Source of the DNA: Paenibacillus taiwanensis DSM 18679
GTDB taxonomy: Bacteria > Bacillota > Bacilli > Paenibacillales > Paenibacillaceae
NCBI RefSeq assembly: GCF_000425125.1
Contig: NZ_AULE01000028.1
Location: forward strand, 62,001 to 126,000
Direction of reading: 5' to 3'
DNA: 64,000 nucleotides
Shown here: piece by piece, positions 25,505 to 39,199 of the stretch
Layout of the letters: the number at the start of each line of letters is the position of its first letter
Numbering within the stretch: position 1 is the stretch's first letter
Translations under genes and position numbers: made by a program
Notes under the pieces: generated by a model
Told to the model about the DNA's origin: nothing
The model's input: only the letters and a program-made list of their open reading frames with translations
Databases searched by the model: none

Positions 25505-25576
25505 GAAGATAGGAATCTACAGCCGTACAAGCGGCGGAGACGTTCTATGCGCCTATATGTAGGAGGAAAAGATAAC

Positions 25577-26638
25577 ATGAATCAATCCAAGCTTGCTAAT
25601 TTAAAGAAAAATGTGGCACCCTACGAGCAAATCGATACGAAGTCAAGTATAAAGCAGATTCTAAACACGTTAGTGCCTCTTGTTCTGCTTTGGTATGCTG
25701 CATACTTAAGTCTTTCCGTATCGTATTGGCTCACAGTTCCAATTGCAGTCGTTGCTTCTGGATTTGTCATCCGTACATTTATTATATTTCATGACTGTTG
25801 TCACCAGTCGTTCTTCAAAAGCCGCAGGGCGAACGATATATTAGGCACGATTACAGGCGTACTGACGCTTGTGCCTTATCAGCAATGGAAAAATAGCCAC
25901 TCGATTCATCATGCGACGAGCAGCAATCTGGACAAACGCGGTACCGGAGATATGTGGGTGCTGACCATTGAAGAATATGAGGCTGCTCCTTTATATACAC
26001 GTATTGCTTACCGTATTTATCGGAATCCGGTTGTCATGTTGGGTTTGGGGCCGATTTTTATCTTTTTGATCTCTTATCGCTTTAATGATAAAGGCGCAAG
26101 AAGAAAAGAACGGATCAACACTTATATTACGAATGTATCTATAGTGGCTTTGTATACACTTTTGATTTGGGCAATCGGTTGGCAGGCATTTGTGCTTGTA
26201 CAGGGCCCTATCTTTTTCATGTCAGGTGTTCTTGGCATTTGGTTGTTTTATGTCCAGCATCAATTTGAAGATTCCTACTTTGAGCATGAAGAAGAATGGA
26301 GTTATGTACAAGCGGCTGTAGAAGGCAGTTCTTATTACAAGCTGCCGAAGCTGCTGCAATGGATTACGGGTAATATCGGATTCCATCATGTGCATCATCT
26401 CAGTCCGAAGGTACCTAACTATAATTTGGAGAAGGCGCATAATGCGACACCGCCCCTTCAGAAGGCCACCACGATTACGCTGCGTACGAGCTTGAAGTCT
26501 TTGCGCTTCCGGTTGTGGGATGAGCAAAACAAGACATTTGTCAGCTTTAAGGAGCTTAAGATTAAGCAGCTCCAGCAGAAGCTCGGGCGCTTATCGGATA
26601 ACGTGAGCAATCGCAGGCCAAAGGTGCAGGGTGAATAA
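25577..26638 (+). CDS. des: Acyl-lipid fatty acid desaturase
   Basis: 353 residues from ATG 25577, 10 nt after AGGAGG (an upstream in-frame ATG at 25547 is less likely). The three His boxes of membrane desaturases are present: HDCCH (72-76), HSIHH (108-112) and HHVHH near 290, with four to five membrane helices between them. It introduces a double bond into membrane phospholipid acyl chains, using ferredoxin or flavodoxin as donor, and restores fluidity after cold shock. Followed by desK and desR, as in B. subtilis, which fixes the identification. Confidence 0.93.
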   Translation: MNQSKLANLKKNVAPYEQIDTKSSIKQILNTLVPLVLLWYAAYLSLSVSYWLTVPIAVVASGFVIRTFIIFHDCCHQSFFKSRRANDILGTITGVLTLVPYQQWKNSHSIHHATSSNLDKRGTGDMWVLTIEEYEAAPLYTRIAYRIYRNPVVMLGLGPIFIFLISYRFNDKGARRKERINTYITNVSIVALYTLLIWAIGWQAFVLVQGPIFFMSGVLGIWLFYVQHQFEDSYFEHEEEWSYVQAAVEGSSYYKLPKLLQWITGNIGFHHVHHLSPKVPNYNLEKAHNATPPLQKATTITLRTSLKSLRFRLWDEQNKTFVSFKELKIKQLQQKLGRLSDNVSNRRPKVQGE

Positions 26639-26721
26639 CGAATGATCAGTAGATAGCCGTTTTGTGCTACTATACAATTAAATACGGATTCAGCTTAGAG
26701 TAAGGAAGGAGGAAGACGCAC

Positions 26722-27858
26722 ATGCAGAAATGGTACCAAATATTTCACCGCAATACGGGACTTAGCCCGTACGTATGGGTCGTCTTTTATATCCTTCCTT
26801 TTTATTTTATATTTCGGGCTTCATCTACTTACGAGGTCGTTATTGGCATCGTGATGATTGTTGCTTTTTTTATTTGTTACATGCTTTCTTTTGTGTCAAA
26901 AGGCTGGCTCGTTTATTTTTGGACATCTTTGCAGATCATTATCTCCATCACGATGACGATGCAGTTCGGATACGTTTATTTCTCTCTGTTTTTGGCGTTT
27001 TTTATTGGCAATATTCAGAATTGGATCGGATTTATAACGTTATATACTATCCATTTAGTTACGACGGTTGTAACTATTAACGTTGGATTTGTGACCAAAA
27101 ATGCACTGCTCATTACACAATTACCTTTTGTGCTCGTTAGTTTGATTGGAGTCATTCTCCTCCCGGTGACAACTTATAACCGTAATAAGCGGGACAAACT
27201 GCAAGGCCAACTGGAAGATGCGAATAAGCGGATCTCGGAGCTGGTCAAGTTGGAGGAACGTCAACGAATTGCCCGTGATTTGCATGATACACTAGGTCAG
27301 AAACTTTCTTTGATCGGATTAAAGAGCGATTTGGCTGGGAAATTAATAAGCAAAGATCCAGCTCAGGCTCAATTGGAAATGAACGATGTTCGTCAGACCG
27401 CAAGAAGCGCACTTAAAGAAGTGCGGGAGATGGTGACTCAGATGCGGGGTACACGATTAGAAGATGAGATGTTCCGCATCAAGCAAATTTTAAAGGCAGC
27501 TGAAATTGAGTTTACGGTGGAGGGCGACGAGAAGCTAAGCAATACCTCTTTGTTAAATGAAAATGTCCTCAGCATGTGTCTCAAGGAAGCGGTAACGAAT
27601 ATCGTGAAGCATAGCAGTGCTTCAACGTGCTCAATCGTGATTCAACCGTCAAGGACTGAGTTGAGCGTAAAAGTGCAGGATAATGGCATCGGCATTGCAA
27701 ACGAGTCTCCCTATACGAGAGGGAACGGGCTGCGAGGCATGAAGGAGCGGCTTGAGTTTGTAAATGGGTGTATGGAAATCCATTCGGATAGAGGAACTAC
27801 GGTCATCATTAAAGTGCCAAACGTATTTAAGCAGCCAGAAGAGGAGGGAAGCTCATGA
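26722..27858 (+). CDS. desK: DesK-type thermosensor histidine kinase
   Basis: 378 residues. Five membrane segments in the first 150 residues (the last, LPFVLVSLIGVILLPVTT, runs into the charged linker NRNKRDKLQGQLEDANKR), a HisKA_3 domain with His188 in RIARDLHDTLGQKLSLIG, and an HATPase_c domain with NIVKHSSA and DNGIGI. His188 matches the B. subtilis DesK position. DesK senses membrane thickness or fluidity in the cold: it phosphorylates DesR when the membrane stiffens and acts as phosphatase when it is fluid. Its stop overlaps the desR start. Confidence 0.92.
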   Translation: MQKWYQIFHRNTGLSPYVWVVFYILPFYFIFRASSTYEVVIGIVMIVAFFICYMLSFVSKGWLVYFWTSLQIIISITMTMQFGYVYFSLFLAFFIGNIQNWIGFITLYTIHLVTTVVTINVGFVTKNALLITQLPFVLVSLIGVILLPVTTYNRNKRDKLQGQLEDANKRISELVKLEERQRIARDLHDTLGQKLSLIGLKSDLAGKLISKDPAQAQLEMNDVRQTARSALKEVREMVTQMRGTRLEDEMFRIKQILKAAEIEFTVEGDEKLSNTSLLNENVLSMCLKEAVTNIVKHSSASTCSIVIQPSRTELSVKVQDNGIGIANESPYTRGNGLRGMKERLEFVNGCMEIHSDRGTTVIIKVPNVFKQPEEEGSS

Positions 27859-28454
27859 TCCGAATCGTAATTGCAGAGGACCAGAGAATGCTGCTTGGAG
27901 CGCTCGCTTCCTTGCTTGATCTGGAGGACGATATGCACGTGGTAGGCAGGGCAAGCAATGGCGAGGAAGCGGTGAAGCTTGTGCATCTTCACAAGCCCGA
28001 CATCTGTGTGATGGATATTGAGATGCCTGGGAAAAGTGGGCTTGATGCTGCCGAGGAATTAAAAGGCTGCGGCTGCAAAGTGATGATATTAACGACTTTT
28101 GCACGGCCTGGTTATTTTGAGCGGGCACTCAAGGCGGGAGCCAATGGTTATTTGCTAAAAGACAGCCCAAGTGAGGAATTGGCGGATTCCATTAGAAGTA
28201 TTATGGCAGGCAGACGTATTTATGCTTCGGAACTGGTAGACGAGGCTTACGGAGAAGAGAATCCATTAACTGAGCGCGAGAAGGAAGTGTTGAGTCTAAT
28301 TGCTGATGGGAAAAATACCAAGCAGATTGCGGATCAATTGTACCTTACGACAGGAACGGTACGGAATTATATTTCCGTTATTCTCGACAAGCTAAATGTC
28401 GGCAATCGGATTGAAGCCATTACTCGCTTTAAAGAGAAGGGCTGGTTCAAGTAA
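27855..28454 (+). CDS. desR: DesR-type response regulator
   Basis: 199 residues. Receiver domain with phosphoacceptor Asp54 (DICVMDIEMPGKSG), Thr and Lys in LTTFAR and LLKDSPSEE; C-terminal LuxR-type HTH from about 135 (NPLTEREKEVLSLIADGKN, then KQIADQLYLTTGTVRNYIS). NarL family. Overlaps desK by four bases (ATGA). It should activate the des promoter at 25439-25504. Ends 75 bp before an intrinsic terminator. Confidence 0.93.
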   Translation: MIRIVIAEDQRMLLGALASLLDLEDDMHVVGRASNGEEAVKLVHLHKPDICVMDIEMPGKSGLDAAEELKGCGCKVMILTTFARPGYFERALKAGANGYLLKDSPSEELADSIRSIMAGRRIYASELVDEAYGEENPLTEREKEVLSLIADGKNTKQIADQLYLTTGTVRNYISVILDKLNVGNRIEAITRFKEKGWFK

Positions 28455-29781: not shown

Positions 29782-30657
29782 TTGAAGACGTTTAAAAAAG
29801 TATACATTGAGATTACAAGCGTATGTAACCTGGCCTGTACGTTCTGTCCACCAACAGAAAGGAAGGCTAATTTTATTAAGCTGGATACTTTTCAACACAT
29901 ATTAGATCAAATAAAGCCACATACAGATTATATTTATTTGCATGTCAAGGGTGAGCCTTTGCTTCACCCCAAACTGGATGAGCTGCTGGACGCGAGCCAT
30001 GAGAAGGGGTTTAAAGTTAACATTACAACGAACGGTACTTTAATTCGCAAAAATAGACAAAAGCTGCTGGGCAAGCCTGCGCTGCGGCAGATGAACTTCT
30101 CGCTCCACAGCTTTGATGGGCATATTGGGTCGGAGGACCGTGACGGGTATTTAAAGGAGATTCTTTCTTTTGTACGGGAAGCGGAGCAGCATAACGTCAT
30201 CTTTTCGTTTAGACTTTGGAATCTGGATCAAGATAATGTGACCAATCAAGTTAAGAATCGCAATCGCGAAACGCTGCAAATTTTGGAGCAGGAGTTTAAC
30301 CTTGATTATAAAATAGAAGAAAAAGTAGTACGGGGCAGTGGCTTGAAGATTGCTAACAACGTCTATTTGAATCAGGACCATGAGTTTGAATGGCCAAGTC
30401 TAAGTGCGCCTGAAGATGATGGCAAAGGCTTCTGTCATGCGCTTCGCAGTCAGGCAGCGATTTTGGTGGACGGAACCGTTGTGCCGTGTTGTCTGGATGG
30501 AGAAGGTGTTATTAAGCTTGGCAACGTTCACGATGATCCATTCTCCGAAATTGTAGAAAGCGAACGGGCAAACAATTTGTTTTATGGTTTCTCGCGGCGT
30601 GAGGCAGTCGAGGAATTATGCCGGAAGTGCGGATACAGGAAGCGATTCGGAACTTAA
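29782..30657 (+). CDS. Radical SAM/SPASM domain protein
   Basis: 291 residues, TTG start (no in-frame ATG or GTG upstream fits). The radical SAM cluster motif is CNLACTFC (Cys15, Cys19, Cys22), followed by the GEP-like KGEPLLHP and TTNGTL. The C-terminal SPASM part has FCHALRSQ, VVPCCLDGEG and LCRKCGYRK, giving Cys ligands for an auxiliary iron-sulfur cluster. Such enzymes modify peptides or proteins, or act in cofactor assembly; this short form is common in Firmicutes and not assigned. No obvious precursor peptide with Cys or repeats lies beside it. Confidence 0.85.
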   Translation: MKTFKKVYIEITSVCNLACTFCPPTERKANFIKLDTFQHILDQIKPHTDYIYLHVKGEPLLHPKLDELLDASHEKGFKVNITTNGTLIRKNRQKLLGKPALRQMNFSLHSFDGHIGSEDRDGYLKEILSFVREAEQHNVIFSFRLWNLDQDNVTNQVKNRNRETLQILEQEFNLDYKIEEKVVRGSGLKIANNVYLNQDHEFEWPSLSAPEDDGKGFCHALRSQAAILVDGTVVPCCLDGEGVIKLGNVHDDPFSEIVESERANNLFYGFSRREAVEELCRKCGYRKRFGT

Positions 30658-30742
30658 AGATGAACGGTGTTCCTCGTGAATACTTGGATGTTACTTTAAC
30701 TGATCACGATAGATTTGGCCACACTCCATCATAATAACACTC

Positions 30743-30783
30743 AAAAACAGCTCAAATCGGAAGATGATGGGGGCTGTTTTTTG
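30743..30783 (+). terminator. Terminator after the radical SAM gene
   Basis: AAAAACAGC pairs with GCTGTTTTTT across a 21-nt loop; the right arm supplies the U-run. Confidence 0.65.
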
Positions 30784-30948
30784 TTATGCGCTGTGAGAGT
30801 GATCGTCAACTTAATATGAACATATGATGTCAGATACATATTTATAGTAGTTAAATAGGACTTTAGTTGGTATGTTGTGGATAGTCGTTTAGGTATCATT
30901 TTAATAGTGCAGGACACTTTTAAGGGCCATGACAGATAGGAGCGATAA

Positions 30949-32391
30949 ATGTTGATCGAAATTACAGAATCCTATATCGATTCGTTAGCACCCAACAGCT
31001 CTGCCATTAAAAATGGACAGGGACTCGTGAAGAAACGCAGCTTCGTGAGATTTAATCGCTCACAGGACGCGACTTTGCTGTTTGGTGAATGTTCAGGGAG
31101 TGGTAGTTCCAACTACCAGTGCTCCGCAGACTTTATTCATCCGGAGAATCCGGTGCTGCGCTGTTCTTGTCCGAGCAGACAGTTGCCTTGCAAACATGCA
31201 CTTGGACTGTTGTACGCCTATGTCGGAGGGGCGGAATTCATAGAGGCAGAAGTGCCCGAGGACATCCTTTTGAAGCGAGAAAAGGTGGAGAAACGGGAAG
31301 AGAAAAAGTCAAAGCAAGCAGCAGAAGGCGTTGAGGCGAAGCCCAAGAAAGTTAATAAATCAGCATTAAAGAAGAAGGTCCAGGCGCAATTGGACGGACT
31401 GGAGCTGTTGGAGAAGCTTGTGCTTTCGCTTATACGCGGAGGATTGGCGACGATAGACAAGAAAGTGCTCAAGACAATCGATGAGCATGTGAAGCAAATG
31501 GGCAATTATTATTTGACGGGTGCCCAGATGGAACTGCGACAATTAAGTTTGCTGCTCAAACAAGCAAGTGAACGTGAGGAGTTCTACACGTATGCTGTGG
31601 AACAGTTGACGCTAATCCATGCACTTGTGAAGAAAGGCCGTACACATTTAACAGCCAAGCTTGCCGATCCTGAACTAGCGTTGGATCATGAGTCCACGAT
31701 TGAGGAATGGCTTGGTCATGCGTGGCAGTTGGATCAATTAAAAGCGTGCGGACTGATGAAGGAACAGGTGGAGCTCGTGCAGCTTGCGTATTTCAGTTAT
31801 GATGATCAGGCTAGGCAGGAGCTTGTGGATTTGGGCTATTGGCTGGAACGATCAAGTGGAGAAATCCACAGAACAATCCAATATCGCCCTTATAAGGCGT
31901 CAAAGCATATGAAGGAAGAAGACAGCTACTTTGACGTTGTTCAGGTACCCGCTTTGTACACATACCCTGGTGATATGAATCGCCGTGTTCGCTGGGAGAA
32001 CATGACTCCGCGAAGTATCGATCCGCAAGTAATAGCATCCATGTCAAAGCATGGACATTCATCTTACGCAGAAGCTATTAAGCTGGTGAAAAACCAACTT
32101 AAAAATCCGTTAAGCGATCGGAACCCAGTAATGCTTGTGCATGTGGCTGAGGTCGTTCAAAATGAGCAAGGCCAATACGCTATTGTCGATCAGGCAGGTC
32201 AGCAGTTGGCGTTGGAGGATATCGCTCCCACCAATCAAGGTACAGTATCGCTGCTGCCTTATATTCCGGCTGACCAGTTGTCGGATGCTACGATGCTAGT
32301 TATGTTCGAGCATCGTATCGCTGAGGGCAAACTTTATGTGCAACCGTTAACCATTATTAAAGGCGCGGATATGATCCGACTTTTGTACTAG
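30949..32391 (+). CDS. SWIM zinc-finger protein (YehQ-like), first gene of a five-gene cassette
   Basis: 480 residues, ATG with TAGGAGCG upstream. A SWIM zinc motif lies at CSCPSRQLPCKH (Cys72, Cys74, Cys81, His83), the CxC-x(n)-CxH form that binds DNA or protein. Residues 105-145 are a Lys/Glu-rich, probably disordered linker (VEKREEKKSKQ). The remaining 330 residues are helical, then beta-rich, with no family I know. The stop codon TAG is part of the ribosome site AGGAGG of the next gene, so translation is coupled. By gene type and neighbourhood it corresponds to E. coli YehQ, whose role is unknown. Confidence 0.88.
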   Translation: MLIEITESYIDSLAPNSSAIKNGQGLVKKRSFVRFNRSQDATLLFGECSGSGSSNYQCSADFIHPENPVLRCSCPSRQLPCKHALGLLYAYVGGAEFIEAEVPEDILLKREKVEKREEKKSKQAAEGVEAKPKKVNKSALKKKVQAQLDGLELLEKLVLSLIRGGLATIDKKVLKTIDEHVKQMGNYYLTGAQMELRQLSLLLKQASEREEFYTYAVEQLTLIHALVKKGRTHLTAKLADPELALDHESTIEEWLGHAWQLDQLKACGLMKEQVELVQLAYFSYDDQARQELVDLGYWLERSSGEIHRTIQYRPYKASKHMKEEDSYFDVVQVPALYTYPGDMNRRVRWENMTPRSIDPQVIASMSKHGHSSYAEAIKLVKNQLKNPLSDRNPVMLVHVAEVVQNEQGQYAIVDQAGQQLALEDIAPTNQGTVSLLPYIPADQLSDATMLVMFEHRIAEGKLYVQPLTIIKGADMIRLLY

Positions 32392-32404
32392 GAGGCTGAA
32401 AAAC

Positions 32405-34267
32405 ATGAGCACAGCGCTGTTGCAAGAGCTTCATCAGGAATTACGCAGGCTGTATATTGCAGGTAGTGATCTAGCGGCAGGGGACTTCCGCTTGAAACGT
32501 ATGCTGCCCCAATTTCAACAGCTTGGAGAACGAGCTCCTGTTTTCAAACGTCTTGCCGAAAGTATTACAGCTCTTGTGGAACCGGCGGATTCACTACAGC
32601 ATCGTTCAGCAGAATGTTTGCAGGACGTAACGTTGTTACTAGAGTCCGTGCTGCGTACGCAGGGGGTTACGACGGTGAGCGGTGAGCTTGGCCAACTGGA
32701 TAGTCGGCCGACGAACTTAACGACCTTTTTGCCATACCGCAAATTGGCTGATGTGGAGCGGGCGTTAATGACAACGGGAAGCGGACGATATGAAATTATT
32801 GTACATGCATTTGAAGAGGGTATGTTTCAGGATCTCCGCTTGATGAGCTTGGCGATTAACGCACTGCAAGATCCATATACGGATATTGTAAACTATACGA
32901 TGAAGCATGTGCTTCCAGGTTATGGTGAGCAAATTGTACCACATTTAGTAAGAAGCTTCGATGCCACTGGCGGTAAGCTGGAAGCAAGAAAGCTGAAAGT
33001 TATTGGAGAGGTCGGTAGCGAGGATATGCTTGGGCTCATTTATGAAGCAGCCGAATCAGGATCAGACGATGTTCGGATAGCGGGAATTGAAGCTTTAGGC
33101 AAACATCAACAGTATGAGTCATCTCTGGTGGAGTGGTCCAAAGACAAAAAGAAGTCGATTCGCGAAGCAGCTTATTTTGCGTTAGCCGAGATGGGAACGG
33201 ACACGGCAGCAGCGCGTCTGCATGAGGCTTTTTCCGGCAAGGACATGGAACTGGCGGCTGAAGCAGCAGCCAAGTGTGACTCTATGCAGCTGACGATGAA
33301 GCTTGTTAAAGATCTTGGTGCAGAGCTTCATAGGGCGCTGGAACTTAAGAATGATAAAAAGAAAATGGAAGTGCTGTGGACAAAAGTTCAGCATTATCTA
33401 ACTGGATTGGAAGGCAAACGCAGCACAGAATTGTATGCTCTTTATACATATACAGTCGAACATTATGCGCTCTTTATTTCATTTGGCTGGATGGACCTTA
33501 TCGATTATGCGGCAAATTACCTAAGTCAAGAAAGTACAGAAGAAGCACTGCGTTTGCTGCAACAATTGGAGCAGAACAATGTACGTTATATTCCACATGC
33601 GTTTCGTGCCGCATTCCAGCAGTTATCGCCTGCTGAGCTGTTTGATTATTACGTGGAATCGTTGCGCAACAAATGGAAAATGGTAATGAATAAAGATACA
33701 AACAAACGAAAACAGCAGTTGTTCCGTGTTGTAGAAGAGCTGGTCATCGAACGAGAATATAAACAATGCCCTACGTTGTGGGGGGCACAACAGGAACAAT
33801 CAACGCTGCTTGCAATTGAGATGCCCCCCTTGGAGCAGATGGCTGTGCAATGGGATAGTCGGTGGCTCGCGTGGTTTATGGAACAAGGTGCAACTGAATT
33901 GGTATGTGCGTTTGCGTCCCCTGGACATAAAGGCTGCCAGCAATTTATGTTGCAGCAACTAACGGAGCACACGGGCTTCAGTACATCTACCGCAGGACTG
34001 TTGCTAGCCGGGTTGGAGCGTGCCGAGGCCGAGGAGCATGTTCGTTATGAAGCGTTAATGACCCTGTTGGAAAACAAGCGCAATAAAATGGGGTACGTAT
34101 TTGAATGGAATGTATGGGAGCAGCTATGTCAGCTTCCAGCAACATATCACGCGCGATTGGCAGCTATTGCGCCTAATTATCGATACACAGCAGGCAACCA
34201 ACTGGAGTACGTGCTGCGAGTGATGCAGGCGGATGGCACAGCAGTTCATGCAGGTCAGTCCGTATAG
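32405..34267 (+). CDS. HEAT-repeat scaffold protein of the cassette
   Basis: 620 residues, almost wholly helical. Repeats of the HEAT/PBS-lyase type are visible at about 160-290: KLKVIGEVGSEDMLGLIYEA, then DDVRIAGIEALGKHQQYESS and SIREAAYFALAEMGTDTAAA. The last 300 residues are also helical but with less clear repeats. Such proteins are usually docking scaffolds; here it would tie the SWIM and AAA+ subunits together. Starts 13 bp after the SWIM gene with overlapping Shine-Dalgarno. No enzyme motif seen. Confidence 0.82.
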   Translation: MSTALLQELHQELRRLYIAGSDLAAGDFRLKRMLPQFQQLGERAPVFKRLAESITALVEPADSLQHRSAECLQDVTLLLESVLRTQGVTTVSGELGQLDSRPTNLTTFLPYRKLADVERALMTTGSGRYEIIVHAFEEGMFQDLRLMSLAINALQDPYTDIVNYTMKHVLPGYGEQIVPHLVRSFDATGGKLEARKLKVIGEVGSEDMLGLIYEAAESGSDDVRIAGIEALGKHQQYESSLVEWSKDKKKSIREAAYFALAEMGTDTAAARLHEAFSGKDMELAAEAAAKCDSMQLTMKLVKDLGAELHRALELKNDKKKMEVLWTKVQHYLTGLEGKRSTELYALYTYTVEHYALFISFGWMDLIDYAANYLSQESTEEALRLLQQLEQNNVRYIPHAFRAAFQQLSPAELFDYYVESLRNKWKMVMNKDTNKRKQQLFRVVEELVIEREYKQCPTLWGAQQEQSTLLAIEMPPLEQMAVQWDSRWLAWFMEQGATELVCAFASPGHKGCQQFMLQQLTEHTGFSTSTAGLLLAGLERAEAEEHVRYEALMTLLENKRNKMGYVFEWNVWEQLCQLPATYHARLAAIAPNYRYTAGNQLEYVLRVMQADGTAVHAGQSV

Positions 34268-34285
34268 CATTGCGGGGGATTACAA

Positions 34286-35413
34286 ATGGAGAGCGTAAAG
34301 GGAGATGAGCCAATGGCTGCACGACAAGAGAACCAGGAAATGATGCGACTTCCTGCGGAACTATTGTATAAGGAAGAACTTGAGGCACTGCGCAAAGCAG
34401 ATAAAGGCAAGGTACCAGCCGGTTGGCAGATGTCGCCGCAGTCCGTGCTAACGTTTATTGTTGGTGGTAAGGCGGGGAAAACCGTTATTACGCCTAAATA
34501 TATGGGGAACAAAAGGTTAGTTGAGATGGCAATTGCCACACTGGTAACGGATCGTGCATTGCTGCTGATTGGCGAGCCTGGCACCGCCAAATCGTGGTTG
34601 TCTGAGAACTTGTGTGCCGCCATCTACGGTAATTCTGGACTTGTTGTGCAAGGGACGGCTGGCACGAGCGAGGAACACGTCCGTTATTCATGGAATTATG
34701 CCATGCTTTTGGCGAACGGACCTACTCCTGAAGCGCTTGTACAAAGTCCGATCATGCGGGCAATGGAGGCCGGTGGAATCGCACGGTTTGAGGAAATTTC
34801 CCGCTGCGCATCGGAAGTTCAGGACGCCCTAATTTCTATTTTATCTGAGAAGACCGTTTCTGTGCCTGAGCTGAGCCGCGAAGTAAGTGCACGCAAAGGT
34901 TTCTCGATTATTGCAACGGCTAATACGAGGGACCGCGGTGTAAATGAAATGTCGGCTGCTTTAAAGCGCCGGTTTAATATTATTGTGCTGCCTACACCTT
35001 CGGATATGGACACGGAAGTTGAGATTGTGAAGAAGCGTGTTCGTGAGATTGCCGCGTCTTATGATCTTCAAGCTGCTGTACCAGCGGATGAGGCGCTTAT
35101 TAAGGTAGTGACCATTTTCCGTGAGCTGCGCAGTGGCATGACGATTGATAAGAAGGAGAAAGTGAAGACACCAGCAGGGGTAATCTCAACAGCGGAAGCT
35201 ATTTCGCTCCTGACGAACAGTATGGCACTTGCTGCGAGCTTCGGAAGTGGGGAGCTAACGGATGAGGACTTGGCTGCCGGTCTTCAAGGTGCGATCGTTA
35301 AGGATGATGTAAAGGATAAATTGGTGTGGAAGGAATATCTCGACAACGTAATGAAGAAGCGCGGTGCTGAATGGCGCGGCTTATATACGGCGTGCAAGGA
35401 GATGAACGAGTGA
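34286..35413 (+). CDS. MoxR-class AAA+ ATPase (YehL subfamily)
   Basis: 375 residues. Walker A GEPGTAKS begins at Gly96. The Walker B region reads IARFEEISRCASEVQDALIS, with Glu in the place of the usual Asp of the hhhhDE motif. Sensor 1 is IIATANTRDRGVNEMS and the arginine finger region ALKRRF. A lid domain follows from about 260. MoxR ATPases work with VWA-domain partners to remodel proteins or insert metals; the YehL subfamily is one of the recognised MoxR branches. Start could also be ATG 34313, which has GGGAG upstream; ATG 34286 has GGGGG at 7 nt. The stop overlaps the next gene's GTG (GTGA). Confidence 0.9.
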   Translation: MESVKGDEPMAARQENQEMMRLPAELLYKEELEALRKADKGKVPAGWQMSPQSVLTFIVGGKAGKTVITPKYMGNKRLVEMAIATLVTDRALLLIGEPGTAKSWLSENLCAAIYGNSGLVVQGTAGTSEEHVRYSWNYAMLLANGPTPEALVQSPIMRAMEAGGIARFEEISRCASEVQDALISILSEKTVSVPELSREVSARKGFSIIATANTRDRGVNEMSAALKRRFNIIVLPTPSDMDTEVEIVKKRVREIAASYDLQAAVPADEALIKVVTIFRELRSGMTIDKKEKVKTPAGVISTAEAISLLTNSMALAASFGSGELTDEDLAAGLQGAIVKDDVKDKLVWKEYLDNVMKKRGAEWRGLYTACKEMNE

Positions 35414-37905
35414 GCGTGACTTCAGAGGGAGCTGTACATATATTTGGTGTACGGCATCTGTCGCCTGGCGGAGCCAAGCACCTGCTCGATTACTTGCAAG
35501 AGGTTAAGCCTACGGCTGTACTGATCGAAGGCCCTGCTGATGCGACAGCGGAGATGCGGCATCTCACCCATGCCGCAACTCAACCTCCTGTGGCGATATT
35601 AGCATTTACGGACGATCTGCCCGTTCGGACTGTATTGTGGCCTTTCGCCGCTTATTCGCCAGAATACCAGGCGATGAAATGGGCACAGGAACACGACGCT
35701 CTGGCTGCTTTTATTGATTTGCCTGCTGATGTTACGCTTGGTTTGCAAGAGCTTCGGCTGCAAAAGGGCGCTGGAGCACAAGTCGCTGAGCAAGAGGAAG
35801 CACAACAGCCAGAAGAACAGCAGACAGGAGAACAACATACGCAACAAGAGTCTGTACAAGGTTTGGAACAACAACATACGCAGCAGGAGCAGCAAGATCA
35901 TAAGCCGGAAGCTACAGAACGACAGGTGATGAAGAACCGCTCCGTGACGGAAGCAGATGCTAACACGACGGAGGCAGCTGTATTCGAAGAGCGCTCTATC
36001 TACAGCCGCATTGCTGAGTTGGCTGGAGAGCACGACTACGATATGTATTGGGAACGAAATTACGAGCACAATTTGAATGCGGGGGCTTATCAAAAAGCGA
36101 TATTAGCTTTTTCTGTTCAGATGCGAGAGTTGTCAGAAGCAAGCGAGCAGCGTTATGAGCAAAGGGAATATGCTTATAATGCTGTGCGGGAAGCGTATAT
36201 GCGCAGGCAGATTATAGCGACGATTGCGGCAGGGCATGACCCTCACAAGATCGTAGTCGTATGTGGTGCCTATCATGCCTCAGCACTAGTGGATCTGACG
36301 GATGCGATGACGGATGCGGAACTAAAAGCATTGCCTCGGCGCAGCACCAAGCTTACGCTGATGCCTTACTCCTATTATAAGCTGTCATCTATGTCTGGTT
36401 ATGGTGCGGGAAACAACGCACCAAACTATTATGAGATGATGTGGCACCAGATGAGATCGGATTCGCTGGATGAACTGCCACAGTATTATTTATCAACGGT
36501 GGCAAGAGGGATGCGGGACGCCGGAACGCACCGCTCTACCGCTGAAGTGATTGAGGCGGTACGATTGGCGGAGGCGCTTGCAGCCCTTCATGGGGGCAGC
36601 GCCCCGACATTACGTGATTTGCGGGATGCCGCGCAGACGCTGCTTGGCAGAGGCGAATTGTCCGTCGTGGCAGATACATTGGCACGAGTAGATGTAGGCA
36701 CGGCGATAGGCTCCTTGGCCGAAGGGGTGAGTCAGACGCCGATTCAAGATGATCTGAACCGATTGCTGAAGCGCTTAAAGCTTGATAAATATAAGACGGC
36801 GGTAGCAACGGATCTAGCTCTTGATCTGCGTGAGAACCGCCGTGTGACTACCGAGGAAGCTGCATTTTTGGACCTAAACCGATCTTTTCTGCTCCATCGG
36901 CTAAATTTGCTTGGCATTACGTTGGCGAAGCAACAGCCAAGCGGACAGGATCGGGCCACATGGGCAGAGCATTGGGTCATACAGTGGTCGCCAGAAGTGG
37001 AGATACAAGTCGTTGAATCCACATTGCTTGGTGAGACGGTGGAAGTTGCTGCGGCGCATGTACTCCAGCAGAAATTAGATAAGTGCGGCTCGATTGCCGA
37101 AGCCTCACATCTGATTCGAACAGCATGTGAGTGCGGCATGCTGGCACAGATGGAAGCAGCACGTCAAAATTTGCAGCATCTGGCAGCAGATAGCCGAGAT
37201 GTGGTGCAAATTGCGGCTGCTTCACGAGATTTGTCTACCATCATCAGTTATGGTGACATTCGGAGAGTAGACACGGCACCGTTAATCCCGCTGCTTGAGC
37301 AATTGTTTACGCGTGCATGTCTGTTTTTGCTCGATAGCAGCGGCTGCAACGACGAAGCCGCCAATGCAATGTGCACAGCCATGAACGAGATGAACAGTGT
37401 AGCTTTGGACCATCACGAACATGTGGATGATTCCTTATGGCTGCGGGAACTACAGCATCTGGCAGCGCGGGATGACCGGAATCCGAGGCTGTCCGGTTTT
37501 GCCTGTGCTATCCTGATGGAGCGAAATGCAATCACAGTAGAGCAATGCTCCACTGAAGTGACACGACGCCTGTCGCCAGGCGTGCCCGCAGACTTGGGAG
37601 CGGGCTGGTTCGAAGGGCTGTCCCAGCGCAATCGATATGCACTACTGTCACGAATGAGCTTATGGGAACAGTTGAATAACTATATTGAATCGCTTGATGA
37701 CGCCGAGTTTGTTCGTGCGCTTGTCTTCTTGCGCAGAGCATTCAGTACATTTGCATCTCGTGAGAAGACGATGATAGCAGAGCTGCTGGGCGAATTGTGG
37801 GGTGTCCATGCAGAAGCCGCAGCCGAAGTGCTGACAGGTGAGCTGAAGGAGGGCGAAGCCAAAATGATAGATGAGCTGAACGATTTTGACTTTGAGGACT
37901 TTTAA
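35410..37905 (+). CDS. DUF5682 protein (YehM-like) with two GxxH motifs
   Basis: 831 residues from GTG 35410, whose last two bases begin the stop of the ATPase gene; AAGGAG lies 8 nt upstream. The N-terminal region reads VHIFGVRHLSPGGAKHLL (GxxH, His16), VLIEGPAD (Glu40) and, after a Gln/Glu/His-rich insertion at about 127-170, VVCGAYHASALV (GxxH, His289). Two GxxH motifs plus a conserved Glu recall the TIKI/TraB/ChaN-like fold of putative metal-dependent hydrolases; this is my inference. The C-terminal 450 residues are helical and repeat-like. Corresponds in type to E. coli YehM, no known activity. Confidence 0.85.
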   Translation: MSVTSEGAVHIFGVRHLSPGGAKHLLDYLQEVKPTAVLIEGPADATAEMRHLTHAATQPPVAILAFTDDLPVRTVLWPFAAYSPEYQAMKWAQEHDALAAFIDLPADVTLGLQELRLQKGAGAQVAEQEEAQQPEEQQTGEQHTQQESVQGLEQQHTQQEQQDHKPEATERQVMKNRSVTEADANTTEAAVFEERSIYSRIAELAGEHDYDMYWERNYEHNLNAGAYQKAILAFSVQMRELSEASEQRYEQREYAYNAVREAYMRRQIIATIAAGHDPHKIVVVCGAYHASALVDLTDAMTDAELKALPRRSTKLTLMPYSYYKLSSMSGYGAGNNAPNYYEMMWHQMRSDSLDELPQYYLSTVARGMRDAGTHRSTAEVIEAVRLAEALAALHGGSAPTLRDLRDAAQTLLGRGELSVVADTLARVDVGTAIGSLAEGVSQTPIQDDLNRLLKRLKLDKYKTAVATDLALDLRENRRVTTEEAAFLDLNRSFLLHRLNLLGITLAKQQPSGQDRATWAEHWVIQWSPEVEIQVVESTLLGETVEVAAAHVLQQKLDKCGSIAEASHLIRTACECGMLAQMEAARQNLQHLAADSRDVVQIAAASRDLSTIISYGDIRRVDTAPLIPLLEQLFTRACLFLLDSSGCNDEAANAMCTAMNEMNSVALDHHEHVDDSLWLRELQHLAARDDRNPRLSGFACAILMERNAITVEQCSTEVTRRLSPGVPADLGAGWFEGLSQRNRYALLSRMSLWEQLNNYIESLDDAEFVRALVFLRRAFSTFASREKTMIAELLGELWGVHAEAAAEVLTGELKEGEAKMIDELNDFDFEDF

Positions 37906-37907
37906 CG

Positions 37908-39113
37908 ATGAGTACAACAGTGGATTCTCGGGTCGTATCCCGTTGGCGGCTTATTTTGGGGCAGGCCGTAGAGCAGCAATTAGCTGAATGTAGTGCAGTG
38001 GGCTTAACGGAAGAAGAAATCATTATGGATCAAGCACTGGCGGCGATCTATGACGAGACAAATGAAAGAACAACTGGTAGTAGTGGATCAACGGCAGGCG
38101 GCAAAGGCGCAGGATCGGGTAGTTCAGCACCAAGGCTCTCTAAATGGCTTGGCGATGTACGCACCTTGTTTCCAGAGGACGTCGTCTCCATCATTCAGCA
38201 TGATGCAATGGAGCGCAAGGGCTGGAAACAGCTCCTATTTGAACCCGAGGTGCTGGCGAAAGTAAAGCCGGATATTCAACTGGTCGGCACGTTGTTGTCA
38301 CTTAAAGGAAAAATACCGGAAAAGACCAAAGATACAGCTCGTGCACTTGTCCAAGCGCTCGTAGATGATCTTGTGAAGCTGTTGGAAAATGATATCCGCA
38401 GAGCGGTGACCGGAGCACTTAATCGCAGGCAGCATACACCGCTTCCCTCAGTCAGCGGTATGGATTGGAAGCGAACGATCCAGCGCAACCTAAAGCATTA
38501 CAATGCGGAACGGCGTCAGATTATACCGGAGAAGTTCTACTTTTTCGATCGGGCGCGGCGCAGCAACGAGTGGACGGTCATTGTAGATATCGATCAGAGT
38601 GGATCAATGGCGGAGTCGGTCATTTGGGCTTCTGTCATCGGCTCCATTTTCGCAAGTATTCCGGCGCTGAATACAAGAGTTGTTGTATTTGACACAGAAG
38701 TGGTTGATTTGACTGAACAATGCGCAAATGATCCTGTTGATATGTTGTTTGGTGTACAGCTTGGCGGGGGAACAGACATTAATAAGTCAGTTGCTTATTG
38801 TGAGCAGTTTATCGAGGAGCCGAAGAAGACACTCTTTATTATCGTATCCGATTTATATGAGGGCGGAAATCAATCTGCGTTAATCCGGCGCATGCGGGAA
38901 CTTCGTGAAGCAGGGGTAAGAACGATGTGCCTGCTTGCTTTATCTGATCGGGGACAACCTTTCTACGATGAACGTCTTGCCAAGCTGCTGTCGCGTGATG
39001 GAACTCCTTGTTTTGCGTGTACCCCTTCCTTGCTGCCTGAATTGGTAGAGGGAGCACTGAAAGGGCTAGATTTGTTTGAACTGGCGAAACGAGTTGGAAC
39101 GAAGCCGGAATAA
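37908..39113 (+). CDS. VWA (MIDAS) domain protein (YehP-like), last gene of the cassette
   Basis: 401 residues. A low-complexity Gly/Ser/Thr linker (about 54-75) follows a helical N-terminus; the von Willebrand A domain starts near 222 with the metal-ion site DQSGS (Asp229, Ser231, Ser233) in VDIDQSGSMAE and continues with GVQLGGGTDINKS (MIDAS Thr) and IIVSDLYEGG. It is of the CoxE-like type that partners MoxR ATPases. It begins 2 bp after the DUF5682 stop. Corresponds in type to E. coli YehP. Probably the adaptor that links the ATPase to its target. Confidence 0.88.
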   Translation: MSTTVDSRVVSRWRLILGQAVEQQLAECSAVGLTEEEIIMDQALAAIYDETNERTTGSSGSTAGGKGAGSGSSAPRLSKWLGDVRTLFPEDVVSIIQHDAMERKGWKQLLFEPEVLAKVKPDIQLVGTLLSLKGKIPEKTKDTARALVQALVDDLVKLLENDIRRAVTGALNRRQHTPLPSVSGMDWKRTIQRNLKHYNAERRQIIPEKFYFFDRARRSNEWTVIVDIDQSGSMAESVIWASVIGSIFASIPALNTRVVVFDTEVVDLTEQCANDPVDMLFGVQLGGGTDINKSVAYCEQFIEEPKKTLFIIVSDLYEGGNQSALIRRMRELREAGVRTMCLLALSDRGQPFYDERLAKLLSRDGTPCFACTPSLLPELVEGALKGLDLFELAKRVGTKPE

Positions 39114-39170: not shown

Positions 39171-39199
39171 AAAGGAGAGCGGTCTGCTCTCCTTTTTTT
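39171..39199 (+). terminator. Strong terminator at the end of the five-gene cassette
   Basis: AAAGGAGAGC-GGTCT-GCTCTCCTTT (10 bp) continuing into seven T, 57 bp after the VWA stop. Confidence 0.88.

Follow-up and report, generated by a model that had tools for sequence, protein, structure and literature searches.

The window analysed here, a stretch of 64,000 nucleotides from Paenibacillus taiwanensis DSM 18679 (contig NZ_AULE01000028.1, positions 62,001 to 126,000 of the forward strand), carries an operon of five plus-strand genes for a SWIM-finger protein, a HEAT-repeat protein, a MoxR-type AAA+ ATPase, a DUF5682 protein and a CoxE-type VWA protein (30949..39113). We suggest, with a rough probability of 0.45, that this cassette encodes a MoxR-VWA machine that would handle proteins on damaged nucleic acid through DUF5682, a TIKI-like predicted hydrolase. 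The anatomy of the operon is solid; its function is what we infer from features that, as far as sequences and structure models can tell, are new here: a TraB/TIKI-type domain in the N-terminal half of DUF5682, a kinship of the HEAT protein with DUF5691, a predicted tandem OB fold like that of RPA70 at the end of the SWIM protein, and LexA boxes upstream of some operons of the window's family (Paenibacillaceae).

The operon consists of the genes for P0001 (SWIM, 480 amino acids (aa), 30949..32391), P0002 (HEAT, 620 aa, 32405..34267), P0003 (MoxR, 375 aa, 34286..35413), P0004 (DUF5682, 831 aa, 35410..37905) and P0005 (VWA, 401 aa, 37908..39113), separated by 13, 18, -4 and 2 bases; the DUF5682 gene starts with a GTG overlapping the MoxR stop (mechanical open reading frame (ORF) from 35371). 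Pfam scores, with cut-offs in brackets, were 26.2 bits (19.6) for PF04434 in the SWIM protein, 38.1 (27.7) for HEAT_2 PF13646, 125.8 (22) for AAA_5 PF07728, 504.1 (26) for DUF5682 PF18934 and 166.1 (26.4) for VWA_CoxE PF05762; an NCBIfam scan of the five proteins gave nothing above its cut-offs. The ORFs and Pfam bear out the five genes and gaps described in an earlier reading of the bare sequence (the original prediction), its motifs were all found (Walker A GEPGTAKS, two GxxH, DxSGS and GGGTD), and the strong terminator it placed after the cassette is a terminator-like hairpin with an 11-pair stem and a T tail (plus strand, 39171..39195).

The cassette is not a chance assembly, since named genomes repeatedly show these five families in this order. 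Eighty loci, those with the top scores among at least 588 confirmed stretches from a genome-wide scan and leaning to type I (the window's type), were compared; order was counted in the 60 whose flanks reach 5.5 kb or more upstream of DUF5682 and 1.5 kb or more downstream, the 20 others being excluded and L060 and two Rhodopirellula loci with incomplete cassettes kept, with gene calls by profile search on ORFs, tandem HEAT genes collapsed and intervening genes allowed. All five genes were present in 57 of the 60, as expected if they travel together in a neighbourhood conserved among relatives, and 54 had the order SWIM-HEAT-MoxR-DUF5682-VWA (51 plain, 3 with DUF4132 after VWA); the remaining five-gene loci had DUF4132 before VWA (1) or were permuted (2), and the incomplete ones held MoxR-DUF5682-VWA only (2) or DUF5682 only (1). 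Median gaps across loci were 13, 23, -1 and 3 bases by mechanical ORFs, and 10 counted neighbour pairs of the main order lay more than 500 bases apart. The gene set is found in E. coli and many other phyla: going by record titles, the 80 loci span Bacillota, Bacteroidota, Planctomycetota, Pseudomonadota, Polyangium and Desulfovibrio. Records of Fusobacterium and Deinococcus show the order too, as do, less surely because long ORFs overlap in their GC-rich DNA, Nonomuraea and Nocardia (the latter without a SWIM call).

Within the family two cassette types occur, and some genomes carry both. Type I loci had the window's order in 22 of 23 cases (the MoxR ORF of L131 is split in two; at L146 the fetched stretch contains four HEAT genes but lacks a SWIM gene). 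All 17 type II loci read MoxR-DUF5682-VWA-DUF4132, followed in 15 by a weak SWIM match, with no HEAT match.

The N-terminal region of DUF5682 (residues 4-321, 35419..36372) matched a set of 28 TraB/PrgY/GumN proteins in hhalign with 97.0% probability (E 9.1e-11); six control profiles reached 0.9% or less. In this alignment the two GxxH motifs line up with the TraB profile, as do the glutamate of IEGP and the arginine and methionine of REAYM. Residues R15, H16 (35455-35457), E40, S83-P84-E85, D103, R239, R260, E261, M264, G286 and H289 (36274-36276) were invariant in 11 sequences, down to 21% identity to the window's, and again in 48; among wider relatives the first motif, [GPS][VI]RHxxP, was present in 129/131, the second GxxH in 131/131, SPE in 130/131, RE[AKR]xM in 110/131 and [IV]EG in 109/131. 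The Pfam scan of the five proteins reported no TraB-family match for DUF5682. In its AlphaFold model (mean predicted local distance difference test score (pLDDT) 86) the N-terminal region is alpha/beta and the C-terminal one mainly helical, with a helical repeat at residues 541-823 (37030..37878); whole-model fold searches were dominated by these C-terminal helices and gave no match at E 0.001 and no TraB protein in the best 50 of either program, and the DUF5682 alignment searched by sequence against solved structures gave three matches, none convincing (best E 0.018). Kinship with erythromycin esterases was tried and rejected, with a 0.4% profile match; TraB against that set gave 92.5%.

DUF5682 shares with TIKI, TraB, PrgY and GumN proteins the N-terminal domain, by profile, and both GxxH motifs; it differs from them in that the domain is followed by some 500 residues that are for the most part helical repeat and is the operon partner of an AAA+ ATPase. 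The earlier suggestion of an effector enzyme gains evidence from the profile match, and DUF5682 may be a hydrolase or peptidase. TIKI proteins are described as metalloproteases; since TRABD-type members are, in the passage cited, yet to be assayed (PMC12329661), protease activity of DUF5682 is offered as a prediction.

The SWIM protein (model pLDDT 94) begins with a SWIM domain (residues 2-100, 30952..31248) holding the CxC...CxH zinc-finger pattern (residues 72-83, 31162-31197) and is predicted to end in a tandem OB fold (residues 257-473, 31717..32367): OB proteins were the top matches listed by Foldseek for the C-terminus and most of the VIA matches listed for residues 257-473. The proposal that this protein recognises nucleic acid is strengthened by the predicted fold, through which it may bind.

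For the HEAT protein the original prediction had the repeats right (PF13646); the family is corrected to DUF5691 by a profile match between the HEAT set and a DUF5691-related set (99.6%, E 1.2e-24) of 25 sequences, three of which carry or include the annotation and the others of which are their relatives. In the Pfam scan, P0002 had no match to a DUF5691 model. At 11 loci of the same genus, identity to the window was 43-86% for HEAT, 64-87 for SWIM, 70-91 for DUF5682, 80-97 for VWA and 89-100 for MoxR, which makes HEAT, by sequence, the fastest-evolving part of the cassette; more than one HEAT ORF was present in 8/80 loci. Because it diverges fast and occurs in tandem copies, the HEAT protein may be the target-facing part. 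Two to four HEAT ORFs were observed at L074, L075, L081, L082, L084 (one of its two short), L087, L099, L119 and L146.

The link to DNA damage comes from the regions upstream of 59 family operons of type I (four of 40 extra stretches were dropped for want of a SWIM start with room, and L146 was left out, its SWIM gene being absent from the fetched stretch). A perfect GAAC-N4-GTTC was present in 10 of them, 0.1 being expected under a first-order model; no other of the 1,792 gapped palindromes enumerated was as frequent, ATAT-N4-ATAT coming second with 8. The same sequence stood upstream of lexA in 13/13 genomes, and GAAT-N4-GTTC upstream of recA in 13/13, these genomes having been picked mostly among those with cassette boxes. 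With a LexA matrix built from 21 unique lexA/recA sites (which themselves score at least 12.7), scores of at least 8, the threshold, were reached in 17/59 cassette upstreams against 5/232 upstreams of control ORFs (Fisher 2.5e-9). By genus, boxes were present in g4 (9/9), g3 (2/2), g221 (1/1), g229 (1/3) and, weakly, g1 (4/12), and absent from g2 (0/22), g220 (0/3), g228 (0/4) and g224 (0/3). The boxes point to LexA control of the cassette in some relatives within the family.

Three observations weigh against a general damage link. The copy in the window lacks a LexA box, the best matrix scores in 30658-31010 being 1.9 (at 30856) and 1.1 (at 30818, where the left half of GAACATATGATG, plus strand, 30818..30829, resembles a LexA half-site); 42 of the 59 type I upstreams in the family have none either; and no perfect LexA core was found at the cassette loci examined outside the family. 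Searches for the radiation/desiccation response motif (RDRM), CTGT-N8-ACAG and GTTC-N7-GTTC gave nothing convincing in the loci tried.

Type II upstreams reached a score of at least 8 in 11/17, by way of GAAC-N4-GATC, found near the start of MoxR in 16/17 loci (L151-L167); none of the 17 has a perfect GAAC-N4-GTTC core. A 16-base form of this site occurs once per genome in 6/8 genomes searched, each time at the type II cassette, and because it occurs only there the site may bind another regulator.

The parallel with E. coli drawn in the original prediction is real: yehL is annotated there as a MoxR protein, yehM as DUF5682, yehP as VWA and yehQ as SWIM, and in L046, an E. coli record listed as a plasmid, these four genes follow a WGR-DUF4132 gene, a DUF4132 gene and a small gene. 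The yeh cluster resembles the window's cassette in joining these four genes; it differs in having SWIM last, in its two DUF4132 genes, one with WGR, and in having no HEAT/DUF5691 gene. Its DUF5682 falls in another clade than the window's: in a FastTree of DUF5682 (midpoint-rooted, without support values; leaves L113 and L118 are Bacteroidota) type I and the DUF4132 type form separate clades. Iodobacter and Allorhizobium also have DUF4132 variants, and DUF4132 occurs together with HEAT in four Chitinophagaceae loci; the window's own genome has no DUF4132. In type II and E. coli, DUF4132 seems to stand in for HEAT. Homology of the two was tried and is not supported (hhalign best E 0.0073, 5% probability).

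In L046 the WGR-DUF4132 gene is the first of the cluster, and CTGGATAAAATTACAG stands nine bases ahead of it. A relaxed pattern was needed to find this sequence, with 4 matches in 26 kb against 2.5 in shuffles, so that its identification as a LexA box depends on its position and on the box of molR, which we take the WGR-DUF4132 gene to be. In the passages cited, MolR has a WGR domain (PMC8533742), and molR is counted among LexA-regulated genes (PMC11039860) and among the SOS genes of E. coli (PMC3978071); in Deinococcus radiodurans, DRA0166 (DUF4132) and DR2173 (WGR) rise upon DdrO depletion (PMC8533742). In the largely open-access literature searched, DUF5682 gave no match, and no functional study of yehLMPQ or the cassette stood among the matches listed.

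The Walker A motif of the ATPase (GEPGTAKS, 34571-34594) is present as a pattern in 125/126 MoxR relatives. Its closest solved chains by sequence are those of midasin (E 4.5e-13), a ribosome-remodelling AAA+ protein with a metal-ion-dependent adhesion site (MIDAS) domain of its own. The MoxR sets of the two types match each other at 100% (E 1.2e-77), and YehL, which PMC3893208 names as one of the two MoxR proteins of E. coli, matches with 258 bits. In the VWA protein the MIDAS motif DxSGS (38592-38606) is present in 126/126 relatives and G[GT]GT[DN] in 103/126; P0005 had no match among solved structures at 0.01. By analogy with NorQ/NorD and CoxD/CoxE, which likewise set an AAA+ MoxR beside a VWA protein with a DxSxS MIDAS, the VWA here being of the CoxE type, the two would form a motor-adaptor pair; NorQD inserts metal by twisting (PMC13036017).

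The same likeness favours a chaperone for metallo-cofactor insertion or enzyme maturation, in which MoxR and VWA would remodel one client enzyme and DUF5682, HEAT and SWIM would be client-specific helpers; molR, too, is essential for molybdate use according to a title cited in PMC8533742. We hold this unlikely. The cassette, unlike those pairs, has three further conserved genes and no metalloenzyme client observed nearby, and no recurring client enzyme was noticed in the annotated neighbourhoods or among the 25 Pfam families found in 119 neighbours. As to molybdenum, moaA is present in 295/295 family genomes at E 0.001 (274 above cut-off), against 155 with DUF5682, and above cut-off in 2 of 8 further records outside the family; it was below cut-off in a 2.1 Mb Fusobacterium record, Dysgonomonas, Ruminococcus, an Oscillospiraceae metagenome-assembled genome and a Lachnospiraceae bacterium, and the eighth record consists of a plasmid alone. 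A molybdenum cofactor role was rejected, moaA being non-discriminating in the family and without a match above cut-off in 6/8 of the other records.

Because DUF5682 exceeds its cut-off in 155/295 genomes of the family and in 5/299 genomes of the phylum (the window's included), the distribution of the cassette is patchy. Paenibacillus lupini (L057) has it, with a DUF5682 that branches near the window's. By tblastn, DUF5682 was found in 31 records of a plasmid collection, several of them chromosome-sized, and in one phage-labelled record; viral contigs gave no match. L047 (14 kb, MoxR-DUF5682-VWA), labelled Bacteriophage sp. (UNVERIFIED), is probably a bacterial contig, its DUF5682 clustering with clostridial sequences. 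DUF5682 of Hymenobacter radiodurans (L041, 11986-14278) is annotated as three overlapping coding sequences and the VWA gene of Methylosinus pOB3b3 (L045, 14220-15388) is in pieces; both are possibly decaying cassettes. Best-segment identities of DUF5682 to the window's were 47-57% for the planctomycetes in L051-L061 and 39-49% for most clostridial sequences, with 31% for the planctomycete L126, which hints at horizontal transfer.

Patchiness, the two types in some genomes, the fast-evolving and tandem HEAT genes and occasional plasmid carriage would suit an anti-phage or conflict system in which DUF5682 would be the toxin-like effector and sensing would fall to HEAT or SWIM; conflict systems built on MoxR and vWA are on record (PMC7159879). 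We nevertheless consider this very doubtful, and the original prediction's 'conflict system' is unsupported so far. Among the five core proteins PADLOC (2023) gave weak matches on MoxR alone (best mad8, E 0.001). A scan of 119 of the 234 candidate neighbour and inserted ORFs, made without a baseline, gave scattered Pfam and PADLOC matches, with 24 PADLOC models of which the commonest had six members, probably six Clp-type ATPases. Phage and viral occurrence is as scant as given above, and MoxR is highly conserved within the genus. The published ternary systems resemble the cassette in combining MoxR, vWA and a further component; they differ in that component, the Pfam scan of the five proteins having found no VMAP, iSTAND, FtsH or beta-propeller (bpMoxR reached 26.5 bits, cut-off 27). 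On the sequences at hand, DNA-damage control is the better lead.

The single repeated neighbour pattern is clpS, a ClpA-type ATPase gene and aat, of the N-degron pathway, directly after VWA in seven loci of one Lachnospiraceae lineage (L068, L071, L074, L075, L082, L102 and L119), out of 43 loci in L062-L119, drawn from several phyla, whose sequence continues for 3.5 kb or more past VWA. Together with the metalloprotease description of TIKI proteins, it speaks for a general stress machine for protein quality control, not tied to DNA, in which DUF5682 would cut aggregated or stalled proteins. We rate this as improbable: the Clp link is limited to relatives whose DUF5682 is 84-100% identical, and the LexA boxes and the OB pair of the SWIM protein would be left unexplained.

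Ahead of the operon, a consensus scan found no sigma-70-like promoter on the plus strand from 30650 to 30949, and Rfam (gathering scores) and tRNA scans of the window gave no match. A DNA search showed the VWA end of the operon to be single-copy in the window's genome (5.25 Mb, 20 contigs). Upstream, at 25547-28454, a desaturase-like ORF is followed by a sensor kinase and a response regulator, reminiscent, from translations only, of DesK-DesR.

The five genes would, in the reading we favour, encode one machine. An ATP-driven MoxR hexamer, with the CoxE-type VWA protein as an adaptor comparable to that of NorQD, would act on or through DUF5682 as its load or effector, a predicted hydrolase or peptidase attached to a helical-repeat arm. 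The SWIM protein, with its zinc finger and predicted OB pair, would recruit the machine to a nucleic acid, which is probably single-stranded DNA or nucleoprotein, and the HEAT/DUF5691 protein would select or hold the protein target. The outcome would be that proteins on damaged DNA are unfolded, extracted or cut; expression would be set by LexA in some relatives and controlled otherwise in the window's copy.

SPRTN with p97 repairs DNA-protein crosslinks. The cassette resembles it, by analogy only, in a protease-like part, an AAA+ motor, a predicted part for binding single-stranded DNA and, in some members, a damage link. A bacterial counterpart, in which a nucleic-acid-guided AAA+ machine unfolds proteins stuck on DNA and TIKI-type DUF5682 cuts them, under damage control in several lineages, is a long shot; if true, it would be a new class of crosslink clearance and give a first function to DUF5682/YehM, DUF5691 and the yeh cluster.

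From the analysis come a predicted family for the DUF5682 enzyme together with residues that are candidates for catalysis, a fold in the SWIM protein that resembles those of nucleic-acid binders and, in some relatives, a putative damage-response promoter. The broader machine favoured here, if true, would give bacterial DNA-damage responses a further, protease-like branch, and the presence of LexA-regulated molR in one cluster with yehLMPQ would be accounted for.

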